NCBI RefSeq assembly: GCF_001623525.1
Contig: NZ_CP015225.1
Coordinates: forward strand, 5,778,501-5,842,500
Length of the DNA stretch: 64,000 nt
Direction: 5' to 3'
Source: Pseudomonas fluorescens
GTDB taxonomy: Bacteria; Pseudomonadota; Gammaproteobacteria; Pseudomonadales; Pseudomonadaceae
Shown one piece after another: positions 56,607 through 57,930 of the stretch. Positions within the stretch are counted from its first letter, which is position 1; every line of letters starts with the position of its first letter. The position numbers and the translations under genes are program-made. Under the pieces are notes generated by a model, which had not been told where the DNA came from, ran no database searches, and was given only the letters and a program-made list of their open reading frames with translations.

Positions 56607-56663
56607 CCCAAACTTTTGTGGGAGCGAGCTTGTGTGGGAGATTCTATGGTGCAGGACTACCCC

Positions 56664-57611
56664 CTAAATGCCTTTCGGTAAGTATTCGCTCTGGTTCTTC
56701 AGCAGGGCGAATACCACTCGGGCAAGCTTGCGGGCCAGTGCCACTAATGCTTCGGTTGTGCTGAGTCCCCGGGCCCTTAGTGCCTCATAAAAACCCTTCC
56801 ATGCCGCTGTGCGCCTTGCCGACATCGCGGCGTTATGCATCAATCGACGGGCCTCTGGGTCACCTCGCTTAGACAGGCAGCGGCGTCCCTTCTTTTTCCC
56901 TGAGTCCGATATACGCAGGTCTAGGCCCAGAAAAGCGATGAAGGCATCGGCATTTCTGAAATCCCCACGCTGAAACGACGTGAGCAAACGGGCACCGTTC
57001 AACAGGCCAATGCCTTCGACTTTCATGCAACGCTTGAGCTGAGCGCCCAAGCCAGCGGCTTCCAACTGCGTCTGGATTGTTTTCTCGAGCAAGATCTCCA
57101 GTCGTTGCATGGCTTTTATCTGGTTCTCAAAGGCCCTTTTGAGCAACGGTTCGTTGGACCAACTTTGCTTGAGGCTGACACGCGCCTGGACCAAGGCTGC
57201 CCGACGTCGGAAGAGGCTTATAAGCCGGCAATACAAGGGCGATGGCGGGGTCCACGGGTGCAACTGGTGGCCTTCGTTGTTCAAGTAGCGAGCCAACAAC
57301 CGAGCATCCAGCGCATCGGTTTTAGCGCGAACTTTCACACCTTTGCGGTAATGGCTGAGCTCGTAGCCGCCGATCATGTAGATCACACAGCCTTTCGCAT
57401 AAGCCAGGTCGGCGAATTCCTGATGATAGATATTGGTGGCTTCGATGGCGACATCCACTGGCGCGGACAACTCCTTGAGCCACTTTTTGATCGCTGCCTT
57501 GGTGTTGGGGATCGCTTCCAGTCGATCTGTTTCTGCGTGATAAATCACCAACTCATCTTTGGCGACATCAACACCCACGATCGGCTTTGCGACAGAAACC
57601 GGCATTGCCAT
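56664..57611 (-). CDS. IS110-family DEDD recombinase (transposase)
   Basis: 315 residues, intact. The N-terminal RuvC-like domain has the four acidic residues in VGVDVAKDE (Asp15), VAIEATN (Glu57) and KTDALDARLLARY (Asp99, Asp102). A coiled-coil linker (about 140-180) and the C-terminal transposase_20 domain follow (EGIGLLNGARLLTSF, then FIAFLGLDLRISDSGKKKGRRCLSKRGDPEARRLMHNAA), with the catalytic serine expected in the ISDSGKK stretch. ATG 57611 has GGAGGA six bases upstream; a second ATG lies two codons on. No frameshift or internal stop, so the element may be active. Confidence 0.95.
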   Translation of the reverse strand: MAMPVSVAKPIVGVDVAKDELVIYHAETDRLEAIPNTKAAIKKWLKELSAPVDVAIEATNIYHQEFADLAYAKGCVIYMIGGYELSHYRKGVKVRAKTDALDARLLARYLNNEGHQLHPWTPPSPLYCRLISLFRRRAALVQARVSLKQSWSNEPLLKRAFENQIKAMQRLEILLEKTIQTQLEAAGLGAQLKRCMKVEGIGLLNGARLLTSFQRGDFRNADAFIAFLGLDLRISDSGKKKGRRCLSKRGDPEARRLMHNAAMSARRTAAWKGFYEALRARGLSTTEALVALARKLARVVFALLKNQSEYLPKGI

Positions 57612-57815
57612 TGAAAATCCTCCGGGCTAAGGTTTGAACACTTGAAGGGTTCACCCAGAGGCGCAGGCTTGTTCCTATCGTCGGTCTAGGCCAGATGCAT
57701 TCTTTATCGGCGCTTGGGTGAAAGGAGGAGGGGTGAAATCTCCCACGGTCTGTACTGCGGCTAACAGTCAGAATCGAGCTTTGTCCCTCCTCCTCCCTTC
57801 AAGTCCTACCATACA
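57612..57815 (-). ncRNA. Candidate bridge RNA of the IS110 element
   Basis: Leader upstream of the recombinase, read on the minus strand. Stem 1: AGGAGGAGGG (57794-57785) with CCCTCCTCCT (57732-57723). Its loop contains AAGCTCG (57781-57775), identical to the REP left of the CT core, and GTGGGAG (57746-57740), complementary to the core plus the right half CTCCCAC. Stem 2: TTCACCCA (57722-57715) with TGGGTGAA (57657-57650); its loop holds AGAAT (57703-57699), equal to the element end before its core, and ACAAG (57672-57668), complementary to core plus TGT of the other end. This is the target-loop/donor-loop order of IS621 bridge RNA. The 7-base target matches are firm; the donor matches are short. 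Confidence 0.65.
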
Positions 57816-57930
57816 AGCGAGCTTGCTCGCGATAGCGGTCGATCAGCCAACACCGATTGCGACTGACACACCGTCATCGCGAGCAAGCTCGCTCCCACAG
57901 GTAATTCCTGCAAGGGATTATCACCAGGCT

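Follow-up and report, generated by a model that had tools for sequence, protein, structure and literature searches.

The window analyzed here is a 64,000-nucleotide stretch of Pseudomonas fluorescens DNA (contig NZ_CP015225.1, positions 5,778,501 to 5,842,500), within which an IS110-family element of 1,175 bp (57815..56641; coordinates are those of the window, and all window features given below lie on the minus strand) is placed inside a repetitive extragenic palindrome (REP), between two CT dinucleotides. We consider it probable, at roughly 0.8, that this is an IS110-type insertion sequence working like IS621, with a bridge RNA aimed at REPs. The evidence carrying this reading is comparative: across many natural elements, aligned by sequence, the target guide in the leader covaries with the target beside the element, and on that basis target guiding is well supported. 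In mechanistic terms, the recombinase would cut the element out as a circle, whose joined ends would form a promoter from which the leader would be transcribed to give a bridge RNA about 170 nt long; loop 1 would then pair with the REP target, loop 2 would pair with the element's joined ends, and the recombinase would exchange strands at the shared CT. Of these steps, we infer formation of the circle, transcription, binding of the RNA by the recombinase, catalysis and the part played by loop 2.

Insertion between CT copies in REPs

Element boundaries were set by six copies in the element's own genome (one contig, 6.92 Mb), all identical over 1,175 bp and with different flanks beyond the REP. 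CT stands on both sides in all six (in the window, a left core at 57816..57817 and a right core at 56639..56640), and all six occupy the site AAGCTCG-CT / CT-CCCACA, in agreement with the AAGCTCG-CT-CCCAC target proposed by the first-pass annotation. The left half, AAGCTCG, forms the end of a REP arm at 57818..57824, and the right half, CCCACA, lies at 56633..56638. The range originally assigned, 56617..57899, is essentially right; it also takes in the REP arms, beyond the element proper. A related genome (G010, locus L265; genomes and loci carry G and L numbers throughout) holds an uninterrupted REP pair between the same two genes, that is, an empty site, and as judged from these alignments the element inserts precisely between CT copies in REPs. 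Furthermore, the exact 14-mer AAGCTCGCTCCCAC recurs at 290 further sites in the genome (0 for a reversed-pattern control), which, together with the guide-target covariation described below, supports the earlier idea of a bridge RNA pre-programmed for a genome-wide repeat. REPs occur in hundreds of copies, and the element therefore gains many landing sites.

Target guides largely change with their sites

The 204-base leader (57612..57815), which we take as a bridge RNA plus 5′ untranslated region on the strength of its fold, covariation and a covariance model, carries a left target guide AAGCTCG (57775..57781) and, 28 bases on, a right target guide GTGGGAG (57740..57746), the complement of CTCCCAC. 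Loop 1 therefore has the layout of a bridge RNA, its 5′ side repeating the left target and its 3′ side complementing the core plus the right target, at the positions and spacing first proposed. Shuffled leaders contained both target 7-mers in 2 of 20,000 cases and all four guide segments (including the two donor segments discussed below) in none of 20,000; this control ignores the earlier reader's freedom in choosing segments, and the weight consequently falls on covariation.

To describe this covariation we collected a first set of 108 copies with 36 distinct leaders, drawn from the element's own genome, 23 other genomes and 47 further loci, with the copies per genome picked from among the matches listed. 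Eleven remote loci (L122-L132, 26–29% identical), some partial or broken copies, six duplicates, seven partial matches and two loci with an altered or truncated left end (L156 and L157) were set aside, and L174, which offers no anchor for the permutation test, was treated apart. A guide variant was defined by the combination of left guide, right guide and core-facing pair. Over the 15 variants, 88 of 105 left-guide positions agreed with the modal left flank, a value reached by none of 20,000 permutations of the targets (mean 63.6, sd 4.0, maximum 84). Agreement from −1 to −7 ran 14, 13, 13, 12, 12, 13 and 11 of 15 and fell to 2 of 15 at −8, with positions −2, −3, −5 and −6 each below 1% when permuted singly. 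Counted by copy, 69 of the 108 match their guide at 7/7 and 29 at 6/7, with ten worse exceptions, and most relatives therefore sit where their own guides point, as the first-pass annotation had proposed to check.

The right flank reads CTCCCAC in 98 of 106 copies read and is so nearly constant that the right guide rarely varies. Matched changes do occur: G094 has a right guide GTAGGAG with a flank CTCCTAC in 7/7 copies, and L174, a 45% identical element from a Woeseiaceae metagenome assembly, sits at GCGGTCCG-CT-TTATTCCC, a site unrelated to the REP target, with a leader that reads CGGTCCG and GAATAAAG and matches that site 7/7 on the left and 8/8 on the right.

A second set comprised 21 genomes (44 loci), none of the loci read sharing a flank with the first set; G274 and G233, which share copies with the first set, were left out, and the search pattern passed over L216, L219 and L255 (the first two look decayed, and L255 matches 7/7). 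Here 127 of 147 positions agreed between guide and flank, a total that none of 20,000 permutations reached (mean 111.5); over the 11 distinct guides, several of which are also in the first set, 62 of 77 agreed against 53.4 permuted (10 of 20,000). We regard these data as an independent natural test of the bridge-RNA rule, in which guide and target vary in concert across roughly the seven positions to the left of the core, with parsimony on a FastTree tree of 45 recombinases requiring no fewer than 20 changes of guide and 21 of target, and in which one non-Pseudomonas relative fits a quite unrelated site.

Guide identity and REP abundance

Three REP variants were counted in 23 genomes, and preference was evaluated in the 12 genomes where the guide equals one of the three and at least one insertion was read at one of them; six insertions at other sequences (three in G139 and one each in G004, G183 and G186) fall outside this comparison. 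Within genomes, insertions prefer the guide-spelled REP variant: 34 of 39 lie on it, compared to 24.4 expected from site abundance (P 1.3e-5, counts taken without control for host relatedness), and 34 of 38 compared to 23.5 when G139 is removed. Of the 14 genomes whose guide spells one of the three, 11 have more sites of that variant than of either other, the exceptions being G039, G100 and G125. All four insertions in G039 follow the guide, with another variant about twice as common, as do three of four in G125, where the guide's variant makes up 10% of sites. Four of the five copies read in G004 and G139 stand at a fourth variant, AAGCCCC, outside the three-variant count.

Predicted fold of the leader

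The leader folds at −70.8 kcal/mol, compared to a mean of −60.2 (sd 4.3) for shuffled sequences, of which 1 in 200 was as good. Both long-stem loops of the first-pass annotation, a target loop and a donor loop, appear in the predicted fold; the two do not make up the whole, as an additional outer stem (ACTTGAAGGG at 57795..57804 with CCCTTCAAGT at 57640..57649, by fold prediction) closes both. An alignment of 35 leaders yielded 27 RNAalifold pairs, six with compensatory change. The clearest case is the target-loop stem (GGAGGAGGG at 57785..57793 with CCCTCCTCC at 57724..57732), for which 14 distinct arm pairs give 130 of 154 positions paired compared to 117.3 after shuffling (none of 2,000 shuffles did as well, the register being fitted per sequence and hence leaning towards pairing) and all four Watson-Crick types occur at one position. 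Shuffling tests used 33 of the 35 leaders (without L068 and L155), or 32 for the outer stem, where L168 is also absent.

By shuffling, the covariation expected of both loop stems was borne out for the target-loop stem only. Two outcomes named as refuting in the first-pass annotation, relatives at sites at odds with loop 1 and stems without covariation, were looked for and not seen. Neither part of the upper target stem (1,002 and 95 of 2,000 shuffles as high) nor the donor basal stem (684 of 2,000) passes alone, and like the outer stem they fail because few distinct arms exist; in the donor basal stem, CACC/GGTG and TACC/GGTA alternate among relatives, with three distinct arm pairs in all, and in the outer stem two inner pairs are compensated in L174. 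An IS621-type 5′ stem-loop ahead of the guide loops is absent from this leader's predicted fold, and among the 35 aligned leaders only L174 has, by eye, an extra 5′ segment able to form one. Rfam gave nothing at gathering scores between 56500 and 58000. Taken together, folding energy and compensatory changes mark the leader as structured.

Putative donor loop and circle junction

The predicted donor loop with its basal stem (57652..57720) holds a putative left donor guide AGAAT (57699..57703), matching the element's right end ...ATAGAAT, and 26 bases on a putative right donor guide ACAAG (57668..57672), complementary to the left-end CTTGT; the first-pass annotation had read both segments correctly. 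Across the 35 aligned leaders AGAAT and CAAG are invariant, and segments that hardly vary cannot be tested by covariation; donor guiding by loop 2 is thus proposed by analogy. At the joined ends of the predicted circle, the first best promoter-like match takes its −35 from the right end and its −10 from the left end in 34/34 distinct 55-base junctions, with a score of 7 of 12 for this element and a mean of 6.1 for the integrated left end plus flank.

One relative, L091 (G091), has an open 322-aa recombinase frame and a leader without the donor loop, which forms one long hairpin; a single copy was found, with a left guide that fits its flank at 3/7. As a working system without a donor loop it was rejected for this poor flank fit. 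In G065 the leader also lacks the loop, but no intact recombinase open reading frame (ORF) follows it. A DNA search for such leaders in 6 genomes returned partial matches only.

Recombinase and genomic setting

The DEDD recombinase (315 aa, 56664..57611) carries both IS110 domains (Pfam PF01548 and PF02371), scores 176 bits against NF033542, the IS110 family RNA-guided transposase model (cut-off 140), and aligns with IS621 (8wt6, Protein Data Bank) at E 3.7e-19. Its residues D15, E57, D99, D102 and S237 fall in motifs aligned with those holding D11, E60, D102, D105 and S241, the active-site residues reported for IS621 (PMC11208158), and the recombinase can be called intact, as first claimed, since the ORF is unbroken and the DEDD and Ser motifs align. 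Membership of the IS110 group is indicated by a DEDD N-terminal domain and a Transposase_20 C-terminal domain with its conserved Ser, both above cut-offs, and by 204 bases 5′ of the ORF compared to 23 bases 3′ within the element; the long non-coding region stands upstream of tnp, and not downstream as in the IS1111 group. The element lies downstream of a shikimate dehydrogenase gene and is convergent with a TetR-type-like regulator gene (below NCBIfam cut-offs).

Twenty-two of these leaders served to build a covariance model, R1, which matched in 54 of 298 Pseudomonas genomes (leaders of this kind being what the model was made from) and, in a phylum-wide sample of 398 under strict filters that lose remote forms, in the element's own genome only. 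Spread on plasmids or phages was considered and rejected: matches in 1,047 plasmid records and 12 phage records all stayed below 60% identity. Several candidate oddities were discarded: an apparent orphan bridge RNA in G046 (three bridge RNAs, partial tnp) owes its gap to a run of N in the copy read, L244; partial target loops in G103, G215, G278, G281 and G162 appear, by locus lengths, to be cut at contig ends; and a supposed tandem dimer in G066 is two copies, each in its own REP.

Other observations concern flanks and orientation. Past the right flank of the window copy lies an extra 16-bp repeat, CAAGCTCGCTCCCACA (56617..56632), a second target-like site in tandem that was seen beside none of the other five copies. 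All six copies in this genome are on the minus strand, though the exact target sites number 145 per strand, and the six full copies of the relative G183, among the matches listed, are all on the plus strand. At L076 (G186) CCCACATTTGGTAG-CT closes the left flank and CT-CCCACATTTGGTAG-CT opens the right one, an approximately 16-bp direct repeat around the element compared to plain CT in other copies, which may reflect a staggered or secondary event, or assembly. Several lineages (e.g. L044, L068, L110) have, by eye, a possible short hairpin before ...CATAGAATCT, between the tnp stop and the right end, with differing yet complementary arms (TTGCAGGG/CCCTGCAA, TGAGGG/CCCCTCA and TTTGGGGG/CCCCCAAA); it is weak in the window copy.

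A second IS110-type family (L015-L023) has nine copies in the same genome, with a 422-aa ORF in L015 that scores 159 bits against NF033542. Eight of the nine have a different repeat no more than about 130 bases from their right end: four carry GGGAGCAAGCTCCCTCGCCAC and four carry variants that end in CTCGCCAC, and L017 showed no such repeat. Each of the two families may thus keep to its own REP class.

Weighing the bridge-RNA reading and its alternatives

Several results weigh against a bridge RNA that dictates REP choice. In 39 of 108 copies the flank departs from the guide at one or more of the seven positions; the ten worse copies match at 5 (four copies), 3 (one), 2 (four) and 1 (one), the poorest fits being L076, L091 and L110-L113 (register shifted by one), and L156, which was dropped, matches by eye at 5/7. 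Only four positions pass singly, with −1 and −4 at 6–7% and −7 at 27%. A one-base change of the right guide in G080 is unmatched by the flank in 6/6 copies, and insertions follow the guide in only one of three cases in G100 and in none of one in G139. The predicted outer stem was equalled or exceeded by 251 of 2,000 shuffles and is thus not significant, the putative donor guides are just 5 nt long and nearly invariant, and the predicted junction promoter scores weakly (on average 7.4 of 12 at best, compared to 6.8 shuffled).

A narrower version of the bridge-RNA reading is that these elements form a REP-specialist branch with a fold of its own (a 5′-3′ closing stem and no 5′ stem-loop), whose guide has been rewritten repeatedly to follow the host's REP variant. 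We offer this tentatively, at distinctly less than even odds. If it were true, the collection would document how guides have been retargeted in nature, one small step at a time, and the donor-loop-less form of L091 would perhaps survive as a target-only system.

An unlikely alternative is that a short target-loop RNA guides alone (a seekRNA of ~75 nt, as in ISEc21), with the recombinase recognizing its own ends and loop 2 not serving as a donor guide. ISEc21 has been reported to move with a 58-nt target-only RNA (PMC11187229), and this explanation would suit both the short, almost invariant donor segments and the open tnp frame that accompanies the loop-less leader of L091. Against it, long stretches of loop 2 are invariant among the 35 leaders, and the loop's segments fit the joined ends in the manner of IS621; L091, a single copy with a poorly fitting left guide, may be dead.

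It is very improbable that the recombinase alone recognizes the REP palindrome and that the leader is a regulatory 5′ untranslated region with REP-like fragments acquired by chance or conversion, even though most Pseudomonas targets read are in REPs, shared drift of REPs and leaders within a host could yield some similarity, the long structured leader of ISPpu9 is described as regulating transposase expression (PMC8450116), and two of three insertions in G100 are on the commonest REP instead of the guide's, for the segments stand in opposite senses at fixed loop positions and are no REP copy, L174 carries both for a quite different flank, and G039 and G125 follow the guide despite commoner variants.

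Comparison with known systems

The kind of system is already known, because bridge RNAs, seekRNAs, the REP-entering IS621 and ISPa11 and the REP occupants ISPpu9 and ISPpu10 have been published; a search limited to open papers did not find this element or branch described. With the bridge-RNA reading, the set supplies natural guide-target pairs, and mismatches, for choosing new bridge recombinases, and drift of host REPs may set a pressure on the guide.

ISPpu10 (Pseudomonas putida, IS110 family) is probably the nearest known element, likened here by target description. Its own paper is said to give the target as TCGCGGGTAAACCCG-CT-CCTAC with a CT duplication, and relatives at GGGTAAACCCG-CT (L121, L236) fit that description. 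Seven of seven copies of ISPpu10, with a 2-bp direct repeat, and likewise seven of seven of ISPpu9 are reported in REPs (PMC1525189); the host REP of ISPpu10 differs from that found here.

SeekRNAs have been published for IS1111 and IS110 elements, including the REP-targeting ISPa11 (PMC11187229). As here, an RNA from the non-coding region guides the choice of target in ISEc21 and ISPa11, the latter directed at Pseudomonas aeruginosa REPs; ISPa11 differs in being IS1111-type with its non-coding region downstream, and seekRNAs appear to be described in that paper with target matches only.

For IS110 elements, published work (PMC11208160) likewise describes bridge RNAs that have a target loop and a donor loop, reports covariation across 5,511 target pairs and records REPs as targets; the present branch could well figure in that covariation set, which holds thousands of elements. 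IS621 of Escherichia coli (IS110 family) shares the DEDD and Ser recombinase, the upstream leader and the CT core, as well as two loops with left and right guides and REP targets as reported in the same paper. It is remote in sequence, enters a different REP and has a 5′ stem-loop, whereas here a predicted 5′-3′ stem closes both loops and the guides apparently follow host REP variants. The present element is thus set apart by a predicted closing stem where IS621 has its 5′ stem-loop, together with an apparently fine-grained following of host REP variants.
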